From: Thermopolyspora flexuosa | GTDB taxonomy: Bacteria > Actinomycetota > Actinomycetes > Streptosporangiales > Streptosporangiaceae | Length of the DNA: 64,000 nt | Assembly: GCF_006716785.1 (NCBI RefSeq) | Contig: NZ_VFPQ01000001.1 | Span: 124,001 to 188,000 of the forward strand | Direction: 5' to 3' | Shown here: positions 6,742-25,090 of the stretch, piece after piece | Layout of the letters: the number at the start of each line of letters is the position of its first letter | Position numbering within the stretch: position 1 is the first letter of the stretch | The notes under the pieces: generated by a model | What the model saw: only the letters and a program-made list of their open reading frames with translations | Told to the model about the DNA's origin: nothing | The model's database searches: none | Program-made: the position numbers and the translations under genes

Positions 6742-7764
6742 ATGTCCCACCCCCCGACCTCCTCGCGCCGGCGCGGCCCGTTACGCGCCGCCGTACTCGC
6801 CCTCGTGCTGCTCGCGAGCGTGTTCGTGCCGCTGCACCCCGCGTCGGCGGCCGCCCTGGTCACCGTGTGCGAGGTCAGGCCCGCGGCCCCGTGGCACGAG
6901 CGGACCGTGCGCGTGCCCAAGCCCGTCGCCGACCACCTGGTCCGGGACACGCTCTCCTACCTCGGCCCGTGCGCCGCGTACGGCGAGCGCGCCCGGCTCG
7001 GCCGCGGCGAGCTGGTGGCCTACGCCCAGGCCGAGGGCCCGGTGCCGACCGCGATCGGCGTGATCTTCCGGCGCGGCACGCTCGACGGCCTGCCGTACCA
7101 TCCGCCCACGGCCGGGCTGTGGTGCCACGACCGGGACGGCGACGGCACCGTCGACCCGCACGCCGAGTGCGCGGGCGGGTACGAGAACGCGCTGCACCTG
7201 TCCCCGGCGTTCAAGCGGAAGGTGGACACGCCGTTCACGTACGTGCTGGTGAACTGGAACCCGCACGGCCACATCCCGGAGGGCGTCTGGGACACGCCGC
7301 ACTTCGACGTGCACTTCTACCTCAACGCCAACGCCGAGCGGCTCGCGATCCGGCCCGGCCCGTGCCCGGTGCTCACCCACTGCGACGACTACCGGCTCGC
7401 CAAGATCCTGCCGCCCGCCCGGTACATCCCGCCGGGGTACGAGGACGTGGACGCGGTCGAGCCCGCGATGGGCAACCACCTGATCGACCCGAGCAGCCCG
7501 GAGTTCCACGGCTCGCCGTTCACCCACACCTTCCTCTTCGGCGTCTACAACGGGGCGATCACCTTCTACGAGCCGATGGTGAATCTCACGTACTACGAGG
7601 GGCTGCGCGACGGTACGATCGCCGGTCGCTGCTTCCCGATCAAGCAGCCCGCGGCGTGGCAGCGCGGCGGCTGGTACCCGACGAGCTACTGCCTGCGCTA
7701 CCGCGCCAACCGCGGCGAGCTCGTCACGTCGCTGGAGAACTTCGTCTACCGCAAGGCCACCTGA
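6742..7764 (+). CDS. Secreted protein with TTHB210-like domain
   Basis: A 340-aa exported protein. It has a Sec signal (SSRRRGPLR then a hydrophobic stretch, cleavage likely after HPASAAA near 34), then a soluble body with four or more Cys. The stretch WDTPHFDVHFY(L) in the middle and the FYEPMVNL region later resemble the TTHB210/DUF5602-like domain seen in other secreted bacterial proteins whose function is not established. A short acidic DRDGDGTVDPHAEC segment near 132 looks like an EF-hand-style calcium loop. The second ATG (6742) was chosen since GGAGG at 6731-6735 abuts the first one (6736). It is translationally adjacent to the monooxygenase gene, so the two probably share a transcript that ends at the 7785 hairpin. 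Confidence 0.75.
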   Translation: MSHPPTSSRRRGPLRAAVLALVLLASVFVPLHPASAAALVTVCEVRPAAPWHERTVRVPKPVADHLVRDTLSYLGPCAAYGERARLGRGELVAYAQAEGPVPTAIGVIFRRGTLDGLPYHPPTAGLWCHDRDGDGTVDPHAECAGGYENALHLSPAFKRKVDTPFTYVLVNWNPHGHIPEGVWDTPHFDVHFYLNANAERLAIRPGPCPVLTHCDDYRLAKILPPARYIPPGYEDVDAVEPAMGNHLIDPSSPEFHGSPFTHTFLFGVYNGAITFYEPMVNLTYYEGLRDGTIAGRCFPIKQPAAWQRGGWYPTSYCLRYRANRGELVTSLENFVYRKAT

Positions 7765-7784
7765 CCACCCTGGTGGGGGGTGAC

Positions 7785-7831
7785 CGGCCGGGCTCGCGCC
7801 GTGATGGGGATGGGCGGAGCGAGCCCGGCCG
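7785..7831 (+). terminator. Rho-independent terminator with 13-bp stem and T run
   Basis: CGGCCGGGCTCGC (7785-7797) pairs exactly with GCGAGCCCGGCCG (7819-7831), followed by TTTT. It ends the transcript of the secreted protein gene just before the convergent CPBP gene. Confidence 0.85.
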
Positions 7832-7843
7832 TTTTCGTCGTCG

Positions 7844-8683
7844 TCATGCCGAGGCCCGGGCCGGCTCGACCCGCGCGGTACGGCGGGGCATGGTGGCGAT
7901 CGCGACGAGCCCGGCGGCGAGGTAGAGCACCGAGACGAGCACGGTCCGGGTGGGGTTGCCGCCCTCGGTGGCGAACACCGGCACGGTGTTGAACGCGAGG
8001 TTGGCCGAGGCGTGCATGAGCATCATCGCGAACACGCTGCCGCCGGTCGCGGCGAACAGCCGGGCGAAGATCATCGTGGCGCCGATGACCTGGAGCGTGA
8101 ACAGCCAGAACTCCTGGTCGGCCTGCGCGGTCCCGGCCCGGAAGAACATCGGCAGGTGCCACAGCCCCCACAACGCGCCGTGGATCACGCACGCGGTGAC
8201 CGGACGCCACCGGTCGAGCGCCCGGGACAGGGCGTAGCCGCGCCAGCCGAGGTCCTCGCCGATCGCGGCGATCCAGAACGTGGCGAGGGTCTGCGCGGTG
8301 GGCGCGACCAGCCAGGCCGCGGGAGCCGTACCGGACAGCAGGGCGTCGATCGCGACGGCGGTGAGCGGCACGGCGAACGGCACGGCGAGCGCGAGCAGGT
8401 ACCAGCGCGGGCCGAAGCGCACCTTGACCGCCATGCCGAGGAGGCGACGCAGCTCCCGGCGGCCGCCGCGGACCGCGGCGAGCGCGCACGCGGTGAGCGC
8501 GGGGGCGAGGATCGCGGTCAGGCCGAGCAGCCCCTGGGTGTCGAGGTCGATGTCGAGGGTGCCGTTCTGGGCGAGGACCACCGGCACGTAGCAGGCCCAG
8601 GTGACCGCCGTGGCCAGCACGTAGAACCAGATCAGCCCGCGGATGTCGGCGCGTCGGGCGTCCCCTCTCAACACCGCTGTCAT
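7844..8683 (-). CDS. CPBP-family intramembrane metalloprotease
   Basis: A 279-aa polytopic membrane protein of the CPBP/Abi (Rce1-like) family. The first conserved motif appears as GEDLGWRGYALSR near 147 (an ED in place of the usual EE), the second as a WHLPMF-type segment near 179, and the third as a late MMLMHASANLAFN with the conserved His/Asn. About eight hydrophobic segments surround these. Members cleave substrates in the membrane or act in bacteriocin immunity, but the target here is unknown. ATG 8683 is chosen because GGAGG lies five bases upstream; an in-frame GTG at 8686 is too close. It is divergent from a TetR gene across 52 bases that contain a palindrome, so it is the likely regulatory target. 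Confidence 0.85.
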   Translation of the reverse strand: MTAVLRGDARRADIRGLIWFYVLATAVTWACYVPVVLAQNGTLDIDLDTQGLLGLTAILAPALTACALAAVRGGRRELRRLLGMAVKVRFGPRWYLLALAVPFAVPLTAVAIDALLSGTAPAAWLVAPTAQTLATFWIAAIGEDLGWRGYALSRALDRWRPVTACVIHGALWGLWHLPMFFRAGTAQADQEFWLFTLQVIGATMIFARLFAATGGSVFAMMLMHASANLAFNTVPVFATEGGNPTRTVLVSVLYLAAGLVAIATMPRRTARVEPARASA

Positions 8684-21629: not shown

Positions 21630-21712
21630 GTGCCTGCGGTTTCCCGGATTTGTCGGACGCGGTTGCTACCTATACGGCCAGTCGATGTCGATCTTCCGTT
21701 GGGAGGCCGCCG

Positions 21713-22105
21713 ATGGCCACGGTCACGTTCCGAGATGAAACGGTGCTGGGCAAGCCGCTTGAGGAGTTCACGCTGCCCGGGCTGCCCACGCGGATCACCG
21801 CGCGGGAGCTGGTGCGCACGCGGGTGCGGGAGGAGGTCGCCCGCTACAACGCCGCACCCCGGCCGAGATTCAACGGACTGGTCCAGCCGGTGGAAGAGGA
21901 GATCGAGCGGAACGGGTACCGGCAGGCCCCCAGGCGGCGGATCGACTGGGAACGGCAGGCCGACGCGGCCGAGCGGGCGTTCCTGCGCAACGGGTTCCTG
22001 CTGCTGGTCGGTGACCGGCAGATCGAGGACCTCGACGAGGAGATCGACCTGTCCGGGGACCCGGTCGTGTCGTTCATCAAGCTGGTCCCCCTGGTCGGAG
22101 GCTGA
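21713..22105 (+). CDS. MoaD/ubiquitin-like small protein with C-terminal Gly-Gly, DUF4132 partner
   Basis: A 130-aa protein. Its first 45 residues read like the start of a beta-grasp protein: a strand TVTFRDETV, a second strand EEFTLPGLP, then ITARELVRTRVREEV as the helix that follows in MoaD and ThiS. After a helical insertion (45-95) come a strand-turn LLVGDRQIEDLDEEI and a last strand VVSFIKLVPLVGG that ends the protein in Gly-Gly, as in MoaD, ThiS and ubiquitin. This fold call is inference from pattern only. ATG 21713 follows a GGGAGG. The next gene begins two bases after the stop, so the pair is clearly a unit. Confidence 0.75.
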   Translation: MATVTFRDETVLGKPLEEFTLPGLPTRITARELVRTRVREEVARYNAAPRPRFNGLVQPVEEEIERNGYRQAPRRRIDWERQADAAERAFLRNGFLLLVGDRQIEDLDEEIDLSGDPVVSFIKLVPLVGG

Positions 22106-22106
22106 T

Positions 22107-24575
22107 GTGGGCGTCAAGGGACGGCTGCCGCGGACGTTCCCGTACACGGAGTACGGCCTGTCGGAGGGCGAGAAGGATGTCATCGCCCGTTTCGAGCACC
22201 TCTTCGGGCCTCCGCCGTGGGAGACCCCGCTGACCTCGTTCGTCGACCGTTTCGACGAGGACGAGCTCCGGGCGTTCGGGCGGTGGGTGCAGATGCGGCT
22301 CTGGCTCGGGCCTTTGGGCGGGCACGACTACGACCGGACGCTGCTCGATGCCGTCGACTTCGTGGCCGGCGTGGACATGGGGTGGACCGCCACGGACGTC
22401 CGGCGGCTCTGGGGTTTCGCGGACATCCTGATGAGGGCGCAGCACACCAACTTCGAGGTGCTGTACCGGATTCCCCTGGCCGCGGCCGCTGAGCTGAGCC
22501 ACTTCGACCGGCGGCGCGTCCTCGGCAACTGGGAGTCGTGGACCCGGAGCTACTGGAAAGAGGTCTGGAACGCCATCGGCGATGACGTCAAGGCGCTGCT
22601 CACCGAGCCCGAGAAGGCCGATCCCGCCGCCCGGGTGCGGAACCTTGTCTGGGATTTCGACCCGTTCGCCTGCCTGCTCGCCGATGAGTTCGGCGAACGG
22701 CTCGGCGAGGAGCCGGTGCTGTCCCTGCTGCGGCACTGGGCCACGGCCACCTCGGCCAAGCCGAGCGAACGCTGGCTCGGTACGGCTCGGCGGCTGTATG
22801 TACCTGAGGCGGCCGGGCTGATGCGCGACATCCTGACGCGGCTGGCCGCGCACCGCGAACGGCCCTTCCTCAACGAGTGGTACCACGAGGACACGATCTT
22901 CCTGCACCAGCGAACCGCCCGCATGCTGCGCGGCCTGGTGTGGACGTGTGAGCTCGTCGACGAGCCGTGGGTCGCCCCGCTGCTCGGCGACGTGGCGGTC
23001 ACCTGCGGGGTCGGCATGGGCGGCAGCGGGGCGAACTGCCGCAGCGAGCTGCTGGCGAACGCGGCCGTGCTCACCCTGGGCCGCCGCGGCGGTCTCGACG
23101 CCGCCGCCGCGCTCGCGAAGGTCCCGGTGAAGGTGCGCAAGAAGACCGTGCTGGCGAACGCGACGCGCGCCCTCGACACGATCGCCGAGCAGCTGGGCCT
23201 CAGCCGGGAGCGGCTGCTCGACCGCACCGTGCCCGACTTCGGTCTCGACGCCGACGGCGTGCGCGAGGAGAAGATCGGTGACTATCGGGTACGGCTGTGC
23301 GTGGACGGCCCGGCCCTGCGGTTCGTCAACCCGGCCGGCCGTACCGTGAAGTCGGCGCCGCAGGCGATCCGTAAGCATCCGGTGGTGGCCGAGCTGAAGG
23401 CCACGCTGAAGGAGCTCAAGCAGACGCTGGCGGCCGAGCGGTTCCGGCTGGAGCGGGCGCTGGTCGAGGAACGCGTCTGGCGCTGGCACGAGGTGACCGA
23501 ATACTTCCTCGACCACCCGGTCACCGGCCGGTACGCACGGGACCTCATCTGGCAGATCCTGCAGGGCCCGGCCGGGATTCCGGTGCGCGCCGGTGACGGC
23601 TGGGAGCTGACCGATCCGCAGGGCCGTCGCATCCAGCCGTTCCCGGACACGCCGGTCCTGTTGTGGCATCCGATCCGGGCGTCCGCCGAGGAGGTGCGGG
23701 CCTGGCGGGACTTCCTGCTCGACCGTGGGGTGCGGCAGCCGTACAAGCAGGCGTTCCGCGAGGTGTACCTGCTCACGCCCGCCGAGCGGGAGACCGGCAC
23801 GTACTCGCGGCGGTTCAGCGGGCACGTGCTGCGGTACGGCCAGGCGAAGGCGCTGCTCAACCAGCGCGGCTGGACCGGCCTGGCGATCGGCCACTGGGAC
23901 TACGAGTGCGGCAGCGATCACGGCGCGGCGGTCAAGGAGCTGCAGGGCATGCAGGCACGGTGGAGCATGCACGTCGCCGGCGATCCGGAGGACGACGGCT
24001 GGGGTACCGCCTCGTACTGCCTCGCCGAGGAGGTCCACTTCTGCCGCGAGGGGGAGGTCCACCGCGGGGACGCCTACTGGGCGCCGGGCCGTTGTGACGC
24101 GGTGCCGCTCACCGAGGTGCCGCCGCTGGTGCTGTCGGAGGTGATGCGCGACGCCGACCTGGCGGTGGGCGTGGCCTCGGTCGGGCTCGACCAGGAGGCG
24201 GTCGCCGGGCACGAGGACTACTGGCGGGAGTACGGCTTCGGCGAGCTCGGCGAGACCGCCAAGACCCGGCGGGACGTGCTGGCCCGGCTGCTGCCCCGGT
24301 TGAAGATCGCCGACCGGGTGGAGCTCACCGACCGGTTCCTGCGGGTGCGGGGCGACCTCCGCACGTACAAGATCCACCTGGGCTCGGGCAACGTGCTGAT
24401 GGAGCCGAACGACGCCTACCTGTGCATCGTCCCCGATCACGGCCGGGGCGCCGACCAGGTGTTCCTGCCGTTCGAGGAGGACGGCGGCATGCTGTCGATC
24501 ATCCTGTCGAAGGCGTTCCTGCTCGCCGCCGACGCCGCGATCACCGACCCGTCGATCACCCGCCAGCTACGGTGA
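22107..24575 (+). CDS. DUF4132 family protein (MolR/YehI-like), large
   Basis: An 822-aa cytosolic protein. The N-terminal 300 residues are helical and HEAT-like. A central part (about 380-500) has GVGMGGSGANCRSELL, and a coiled stretch (VVAELKATLKELKQTLAAERF, broken here by repeats) lies near 430-450. The C-terminal third carries the DUF4132 hallmark region (WTGLAIGHWDYECGSD, then ADLAVGVASVGLD) and a last domain with RVRGDLRTYKIHLGSGN and YLCIVPD. E. coli MolR and YehI belong to this family; their function is not settled. GTG 22107 has GGAGG five bases upstream. It is coupled to the Gly-Gly small protein gene, and a terminator follows 6 bases after the stop, so this is a two-gene operon. 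Confidence 0.85.
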   Translation: MGVKGRLPRTFPYTEYGLSEGEKDVIARFEHLFGPPPWETPLTSFVDRFDEDELRAFGRWVQMRLWLGPLGGHDYDRTLLDAVDFVAGVDMGWTATDVRRLWGFADILMRAQHTNFEVLYRIPLAAAAELSHFDRRRVLGNWESWTRSYWKEVWNAIGDDVKALLTEPEKADPAARVRNLVWDFDPFACLLADEFGERLGEEPVLSLLRHWATATSAKPSERWLGTARRLYVPEAAGLMRDILTRLAAHRERPFLNEWYHEDTIFLHQRTARMLRGLVWTCELVDEPWVAPLLGDVAVTCGVGMGGSGANCRSELLANAAVLTLGRRGGLDAAAALAKVPVKVRKKTVLANATRALDTIAEQLGLSRERLLDRTVPDFGLDADGVREEKIGDYRVRLCVDGPALRFVNPAGRTVKSAPQAIRKHPVVAELKATLKELKQTLAAERFRLERALVEERVWRWHEVTEYFLDHPVTGRYARDLIWQILQGPAGIPVRAGDGWELTDPQGRRIQPFPDTPVLLWHPIRASAEEVRAWRDFLLDRGVRQPYKQAFREVYLLTPAERETGTYSRRFSGHVLRYGQAKALLNQRGWTGLAIGHWDYECGSDHGAAVKELQGMQARWSMHVAGDPEDDGWGTASYCLAEEVHFCREGEVHRGDAYWAPGRCDAVPLTEVPPLVLSEVMRDADLAVGVASVGLDQEAVAGHEDYWREYGFGELGETAKTRRDVLARLLPRLKIADRVELTDRFLRVRGDLRTYKIHLGSGNVLMEPNDAYLCIVPDHGRGADQVFLPFEEDGGMLSIILSKAFLLAADAAITDPSITRQLR

Positions 24576-24581
24576 GGCACA

Positions 24582-24609
24582 GCCGTGGCCGCGGTGGCGC
24601 GGCCACGGC
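24582..24609. terminator. Perfect 12-bp stem-loop ending the DUF4132 operon
   Basis: GCCGTGGCCGCG (24582-24593) and CGCGGCCACGGC (24598-24609) surround a GTGG loop. It starts 6 bases after the DUF4132 stop and 4 bases from the convergent PPOX stop, so it can serve both. Confidence 0.8.
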
Positions 24610-24613
24610 ACGG

Positions 24614-25090
24614 TCAGTACTGGTTCGTGGCCGCGTCGAGGGCGAGGTTCCGGTCGAGCTCCTCGGCGGTGACGCTGAGCTTCATCTGGTCCTTGACGAT
24701 CTGGCCGAAGGTGGGCAGGGTGCTGCGGTCCGGCCAGGTCTCCGGGTTCCAGAGGCCGGAGCGGAGGAAGGCCTTACCGCAGTGCATGTACAGCTCCTCG
24801 ACCTCGACGAGGAGGGCGAGGCGGGGGCGCTTGCCCTTCACCACGAGGTCGTCGAAGAACGGGGCGTCCGACACGATCACGGCGCGGCCGTTCACCCGCA
24901 GGGTCTCGGTCATGCCGGGCACGACGAACAGCAGGCCGACGTGCGGGTTGCGCAGCACGTTGCGGAAGCTGTCGGCCCGGTGGTTGCCGGGGCGGTCGGC
25001 GATCACGAGGTGGTGGTCGTCGAGGACGAGCACCGAGCCGGCGGGGTCGCCACGCGGGGAGACGTCGCAGGTCCCGTCCGAGTTCGCCAC
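24614..25090 (-). pseudogene. PPOX-class flavin protein, N-terminally truncated
   Basis: The 158 codons match the FMN-binding pyridoxamine-phosphate-oxidase-like family: DGTCDVSPRGDPAGSVLVLDD, then RPGNHRADSFRNVLRNPHVGLLF and the late CGKAFLRSGLWNPETWP (each given in part). In this family about 45-60 more residues, with the first beta strands (an SPFxVLATxG-type stretch), should precede DGTCDVS. Here the frame upstream is a Gly/Arg/Pro run with no such strand. A GTG at 25090 could still start a shortened protein, but a split-barrel lacking its first strands is unlikely to fold. The break falls next to another truncated gene, suggesting a deletion joined the two. Confidence 0.65.

Follow-up and report, generated by a model that had tools for sequence, protein, structure and literature searches.

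We describe two adjacent genes in Thermopolyspora flexuosa that form a real, widely conserved partnership and point to an overlooked ubiquitin-like system. The pair lies in a window of 64,000 nucleotides (G000:C1:124001-188000 of a 5.77-Mb genome; the window is the whole stretch of DNA analyzed) and encodes a small protein ending in Gly-Gly and a large partner carrying the domains DUF4132 and DUF7737. By sequence the small protein is a new family, with a predicted beta-grasp fold; the family, the rule that it ends in Gly-Gly and its link to the partner appear to be new here. With evenly divided confidence, we propose that the pair is a stress-induced ubiquitin-like system in which C-terminal Gly-Gly chemistry occurs at DUF7737. 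The pair is laid out in the window as follows.

21713 to 22105, forward strand: small-protein gene, 130 amino acids; predicted beta-grasp (ubiquitin/MoaD-like) protein with a Gly-Gly end and no Pfam or NCBIfam model
22091 to 22102, forward strand: codons for Leu-Val-Gly-Gly at the C-terminus; a 52-member actinobacterial alignment shows Gly129 and Gly130 to be invariant
22107 to 24575, forward strand: partner gene, 822 amino acids, GTG start; predicted solenoid at about residues 19-372, DUF4132 at 411-589, DUF7737 at 718-821
24258 to 24569, forward strand: DUF7737 domain of the partner (Pfam), containing the near-invariant Cys773 (codon 24423-24425)

Conservation of the Gly-Gly tail

An earlier note on this DNA had described a 130-amino-acid open reading frame (ORF) at 21713-22105 ending exactly in LVPLVGG, and this is the case: the translation ends in FIKLVPLVGG and is followed by a TGA stop (VVSFIKLVPLVGG). 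All 110 homologues first collected carry L-x-G-G at the stop codon and, with all loci combined, 126 of 131 distinct full-length homologues end exactly in GG, in keeping with the near-invariance that the note had anticipated. The tail is kept in Deinococcus and Novosphingobium copies that are only about 20-30% identical, which rules out an accident of descent within one genus. In a mixed alignment that included copies with 20-31% identity to the window protein, V38, A86, L124, L127 and G129 were present in every row, and G130 in every row except that of Bacteroides.

The five exceptions are a Bacteroides finegoldii copy, which ends in LAMLSGRLW, and four orphans (L159-L162), all from a single family of another class. 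These orphans end in VVASGS or similar and have no DUF4132 neighbour, and their genomes are not among the DUF7737 matches. An orphan subfamily at L166-L169 (genomes G516, G538, G568 and G676), with ends VVASGS, VVASAS or VVAAEA and likewise no DUF4132 neighbour, is a natural control group. The glycine codons are commonly GGAGGC or GGGGGC where the partner follows immediately 3', and mostly GGCGGC where no partner follows. Because the codons vary with the position of the partner, conservation of Gly-Gly is at the level of the protein, and a by-product of a ribosome-binding site was rejected as its cause.

Pairing with DUF4132-DUF7737 proteins

Co-occurrence was counted in 201 genomes of the family, using the Pfam models PF24879 (DUF7737) and PF13569 (DUF4132). 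The small protein was detected in 74 of these genomes, of which 70 were kept after four weak or degenerate matches were dropped; DUF7737 was found in 79 and DUF4132 in 109. DUF7737 is present in 69 of the 70 small-protein genomes, and the small protein in none of the 32 genomes that have DUF4132 without DUF7737 (Fisher p ~1e-41 for co-occurrence of the small protein and DUF7737). A same-strand DUF7737 gene lies within 3.5 kb in 56 of 72 places. Within about 6 kb on the genome contigs, DUF4132 is the only widely recurring neighbour family (69 of 80 loci), mostly downstream of the small gene in Streptosporangiaceae and upstream in Streptomyces and Actinomadura, where there are sometimes two or three paralogues. 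With homologues in many genera, the pairing proposed in the earlier note thus exceeds chance.

The note had linked the small protein to its DUF4132 neighbour in general. That the link is non-random stands, but it holds only for DUF4132 proteins carrying a C-terminal DUF7737, and we have replaced DUF4132 with DUF4132-DUF7737 as the partner since many DUF4132 genomes lack the small protein. Where a genome or locus lacks the small gene, its DUF4132 proteins stop at the point at which DUF7737 would start. Occurrence of each gene without the other, which the note had named as telling against a link, is thus frequent for DUF4132 at large (E. coli, actinobacterial paralogues) but not for DUF4132-DUF7737.

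Ten DUF7737 genomes gave no small gene in the first search. One of them, G136, then yielded a missed divergent copy, in several DUF7737 is broken or cut, and intact DUF7737 without a small gene was seen in G025, G125 and G194. A phylum-wide DUF7737 search added G819, with a small gene directly upstream ending in VRLVALAGG, so that an initially missed small gene was recovered adjoining DUF7737 in two genomes. An Acetobacter small gene upstream of DUF4132 was rejected as not homologous; the Acetobacter DUF7737 lacks the cysteine discussed below. At four loci (L068, L072, L022 and L066) a decayed or truncated DUF4132 gene adjoins an intact small gene that keeps GG, and other DUF7737 copies may serve these small genes. 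In G198 and other genomes of the family DUF4132 has undergone a separate expansion, with as many as 16 paralogues in G198, which has neither a small GG protein nor a DUF7737 match.

Predicted fold of the small protein

An AlphaFold2 model built with 52 homologues reached a predicted local distance difference test (pLDDT) of 78 and a predicted template modelling score (pTM) of 0.70. The modelled strands span residues 2-9, 15-24, 95-99, 102-104, 110-112 and 118-123, with a helix at 30-47, a helical insert at 61-67 and 79-91, and residues 126-130, the Gly-Gly tail, disordered. This beta-beta-alpha-beta-beta core, a mixed sheet around a helix, is that of a beta-grasp protein. Foldseek returned hundreds of ubiquitin-fold matches, mostly ubiquitin, NEDD8, SUMO and the MoaD-like molybdopterin synthase subunit, none below E 0.001. 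The best VIA-align match was human MOCS2A (5mpo_A, Z 8.2 over 78 residues), with most rows at Z 7.1-7.8. The Z values are moderate and the fold is consistent throughout; we therefore predict a beta-grasp protein, and the ubiquitin/MoaD fold suggested in the earlier note is borne out by all three programs.

Membership of the MoaD/ThiS family is not supported by sequence. Up to E 10, neither Pfam (PF02597 included) nor NCBIfam gives a match to the small protein, its 52 homologues share no recurring Pfam family, a PF02597 profile search of the whole genome misses this locus, and hhalign against actinobacterial MoaD gave a probability of 0.4%. A sequence search for relatives of solved structure returned nothing meaningful. 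Since PMC9650054 already describes a Deinococcus homologue as MoaD/SAMP-like, the fold is not wholly novel.

The partner protein and Cys773

The Pfam matches of the partner are strong for both DUF4132 (E 1.2e-49, 169.1 bits) and DUF7737 (E 1.7e-42, 144.1 bits), each against a cut-off of 27 bits. Its AlphaFold2 model (pLDDT 86, pTM 0.74) begins with a helical HEAT/ARM-like solenoid, for which structural matches span residues 19-372. The alpha/beta C-terminal half, including DUF7737, has no clear match among solved structures; a YugN-like assignment of residues 564-691 (2r5x, Z 8.0) was too weak to use, and a sequence search of the partner against solved structures gave nothing meaningful. Our literature search found three papers naming DUF4132 but no source naming DUF7737 or DUF5724, a further domain of the Deinococcus partners.

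Partners from four phyla were aligned, and 43 of the 44 have Cys773; the one without it is from Bacteroides, the small protein of which lacks GG. In a wider set of 137 DUF7737 stretches, 126 have Cys at this column; the others are from Bacteroides, Acetobacter, G025 and G192 (no small gene) and an accessory Actinomadura paralogue, in operons that also hold Cys copies. Every locus with a GG copy and DUF7737 includes a Cys copy (95 of 95, with near-duplicates among the loci). This joint Gly-Gly/Cys pattern is suggestive, not proof. The Actinomadura loci concerned (L065, L074, L077, L081, L101, L104 and L108) have up to three DUF4132 paralogues, and the shorter middle one has R, L or H in place of Cys.

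Homologous pairs in other phyla

Phyla beyond Actinomycetota were covered through plasmid-collection records, and besides Deinococcus the family extends to Actinomycetota, Pseudomonadota and Bacteroidota. In the alphaproteobacterium Novosphingobium humi, a homologue ending in LTPLKGG overlaps the start of an 843-amino-acid DUF4132-DUF7737 gene. Deinococcus ficus, D. radiodurans and D. psychrotolerans have 134-amino-acid copies ending in RLTALAGG, two bases before a giant gene for a DUF5724-DUF4132-DUF7737 protein (1626-1635 amino acids where measured). Bacteroides finegoldii has the same gene arrangement as Deinococcus, with a small protein that lacks GG; its pair is flanked by rhomboid protease and GAF-domain genes (L203:130-1884 and 7417-7887). 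Scans of viral contigs found no copies of the small protein, and a PADLOC defence-system search gave only weak matches, too weak for assignment to a known defence system.

In D. radiodurans the pair corresponds to DR_A0165 and DR_A0166; we equate these with our L201 genes from the order of the genes, trxC/Trx1 lying upstream, and from how the products are described. These are direct homologues of the window pair in the same order, the partner differing by its extra DUF5724; the pair adjoins a thioredoxin gene, and thiS is nearby. According to PMC9650054, DR_A0165 (SEP068184) is raised after irradiation and H2O2, its knockout is more resistant to H2O2, and the protein is cytoplasmic, binds the thioredoxin Trx1 and has a predicted fold resembling MOCS2 and SAMP1. 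It is claimed there to be present in Deinococcus alone, whereas the family found here spans further phyla. In their available excerpts, PMC9650054 and PMC8533742 take up neither the Gly-Gly tail nor a system formed jointly with DUF4132.

Promoters and DNA-damage control

The RecA-NDp consensus is TTGTCRGTG-N8-TAnnnT, and shuffled sequences reach at least 10 of its 12 positions in about 0.4-0.5% of cases. Sequences upstream of the pairs are enriched in this PafBC/RecA-NDp promoter. Perfect 12/12 sites occur at -29 to -31 in all six Streptomyces-type copies examined, and operons with DUF4132 first mostly have sites of 10-11/12 at -29. The T. flexuosa genome has 23 sites with no more than one mismatch, compared with five for the reversed pattern, and these sites precede recA, an AlkZ-like DNA glycosylase gene, an exonuclease-domain gene and others. 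The motif name and the role of PafBC are taken from PMC6789036.

The window copy has a promoter variant near -60, conserved in most Streptosporangiaceae copies:

21650 to 21672, forward strand: candidate promoter element TTGTCGGACGCGGTTGCTACCTA, a PafBC/RecA-NDp variant agreeing at 9 of 12 consensus positions

The variant pattern YTGTCGG-N7-TGNTA occurs once in the whole genome, at this locus. We do not claim it as a canonical RecA-NDp site, and possible PafBC control of the window copy is a lead only.

A DdrO-type palindrome lies at about -72 to -92 upstream of the three Deinococcus pairs. In PMC8533742, DRA0165, in a putative operon with drA0166, is a DdrO target with the motif at -83, and mitomycin C induces the DRA0166 protein in an IrrE-dependent manner; PMC9650054 reports that no such motif was found. 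On this point the Deinococcus upstream sequence agrees with the former and not with the latter.

Arrangement of the window operon

The earlier note had placed the partner start two bases after the small gene; the gap between stop codon and start is in fact one base. It had also given the DUF4132 gene a GGAGG of its own. The GGAGG is there, but it is formed by the codons of Gly129-Gly130 themselves, which double as the ribosome-binding site. Of the terminator said to close the operon, a perfect inverted repeat was found but no T-run after it in a direct reading of the sequence:

24583 to 24608, forward strand: inverted repeat 3' of the operon, read directly from the sequence; arms of 11 bp (24583-24593 and 24598-24608), loop of 4 nucleotides, after the partner stop codon

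A convergent gene ending at 24614 lies just beyond the repeat.

Comparison with known systems

Like the sulfur carriers MoaD, ThiS and CysO (PF02597), the small protein would combine a beta-grasp fold and a free C-terminal Gly-Gly with one dedicated larger partner. It is unlike them in having no PF02597 match, in having some 45 more residues and a helical insert, in pairing with DUF4132-DUF7737 rather than MoaE, ThiG or CysM, and in the DNA-damage promoters of its family; four ordinary ThiS-family genes were found elsewhere in the genome by the PF02597 search. A ubiquitin fold and an exposed Gly-Gly tail are likewise shared with ubiquitin, NEDD8 and SUMO, with archaeal SAMP and with bacterial Bil/BUB-type proteins, but unlike those systems the conserved locus holds the partner alone, with no E1, E2 or JAMM gene seen to recur among neighbours within about 6 kb. 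The E1-like proteins of the genome include a MoeZ-like one, in which ThiF and rhodanese parts are combined, and two further ThiF-like proteins that by eye look related to peptide modification, all unlinked to the pair. About 60 kb from the pair, a ThiF-like gene overlaps one that encodes a putative membrane protein of M50 type (L192, G000:C1:85162-85869), which is probably a peptide-modification cluster.

E. coli MolR/YehI and other DUF4132 proteins share the DUF4132 core and lack DUF7737: actinobacterial examples end before it, their genomes have no small GG partner, and no DUF7737 was found in the E. coli control genome. Pup and UBact are also small bacterial modifiers, and Pup too is found in actinobacterial hosts. 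Pup is disordered and ends in GGQ or GGE; in contrast, a folded structure is predicted for the present protein, and its end is GG. The PafBC genes are located at the proteasome locus (PMC6789036).

Discussion

If the pair works by Gly-Gly chemistry at DUF7737, the tail would be the working end of the small protein. Either the partner or an E1-type enzyme of general use in the cell, MoeZ for instance, could activate it, and it would dock at DUF7737. There Cys773 may handle the tail by transfer of a thioester or of sulfur, and the target would be bound by the helical solenoid. After DNA damage or oxidative stress, the likely outcome would be that the small protein is attached to targets, or that the partner is switched in a tail-dependent way. 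In its boldest form, which we offer tentatively, this would be an unrecognised system of ubiquitin-like modification that belongs to the DNA-damage response and is present in Actinomycetota, Deinococcota and Pseudomonadota, in which a solenoid-DUF4132-DUF7737 protein replaces E2-E3 or even E1 and Cys773 is a new Gly-Gly transferase site.

Several observations weigh against such chemistry. No E1, E2 or JAMM was seen among neighbours within about 6 kb (no systematic E2 or JAMM search was made), and the E1-like proteins of the genome lie away from the pair. DUF7737 gave no clear match of solved structure that would mark it as an enzyme. Joint loss of Cys and Gly-Gly comes down essentially to a single lineage together with a few partners that are unpaired, and in G125 and G194 the Cys persists although no small protein was detected. 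The window promoter matches only 9 of 12 consensus positions. N- and C-tagged DR_A0165 co-purified 157 common proteins (PMC9650054), and since a C-terminal tag should block Gly-Gly chemistry, these shared proteins fit non-covalent binding or background. That the tail is activated, that a conjugate or thiocarboxylate forms and that Cys773 has a role are steps that we infer.

A doubtful but serious competitor is a non-covalent complex. The beta-grasp protein would then serve the partner as a subunit, fixed or regulatory, and its tail would occupy a narrow channel that admits only glycine and would never be activated. The want of a linked E1 gene, the near-obligate pairing with DUF7737, the persistence of the Bacteroides pair without GG or Cys, and the use of DR_A0165 as bait tagged at either end (PMC9650054) would all be expected of such a subunit. 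A structural tail, however, should allow extension or substitution, yet 126 of 131 copies end at the second glycine, and docking alone leaves the near-invariant Cys of DUF7737 unexplained.

We think it unlikely that the small protein is a sulfur carrier, its tail converted to a thiocarboxylate (by MoeZ, for example) and DUF4132-DUF7737 acting as a synthase that passes sulfur to a nucleic acid or metabolite. The closest solved fold is a MoaD-type subunit, the genome has the MoeZ-like protein described above, and the D. radiodurans pair has thioredoxin and thiS genes close by. In MoaD-MoaE a small GG protein has one dedicated large partner, an organization that the present pair resembles. No profile links the protein to the MoaD family, however, nor does it match ThiS in Pfam; its conserved neighbourhood has no biosynthetic genes, DNA-damage control would be unusual in a cofactor pathway, and a large helical solenoid is atypical of sulfur-transfer enzymes. 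That an ordinary small protein merely neighbours an unrelated DUF4132 gene in this genus has a negligible probability: 16 of 72 copies have no same-strand DUF7737 within 3.5 kb and DUF4132 is often alone, but both gene orders, the several phyla, the adjacency counts and the genome-wide co-occurrence refute it.

The pairing gives DUF4132 and DUF7737 a concrete hypothesis, in which a dedicated ubiquitin-fold protein offers a Gly-Gly tail for them to read or use, and it directs attention to one cysteine and two glycines. If this is right, the DNA-damage response of bacteria would gain a ubiquitin-like branch, and two uncharacterised stress-induced genes of the radioresistant model D. radiodurans would be accounted for.

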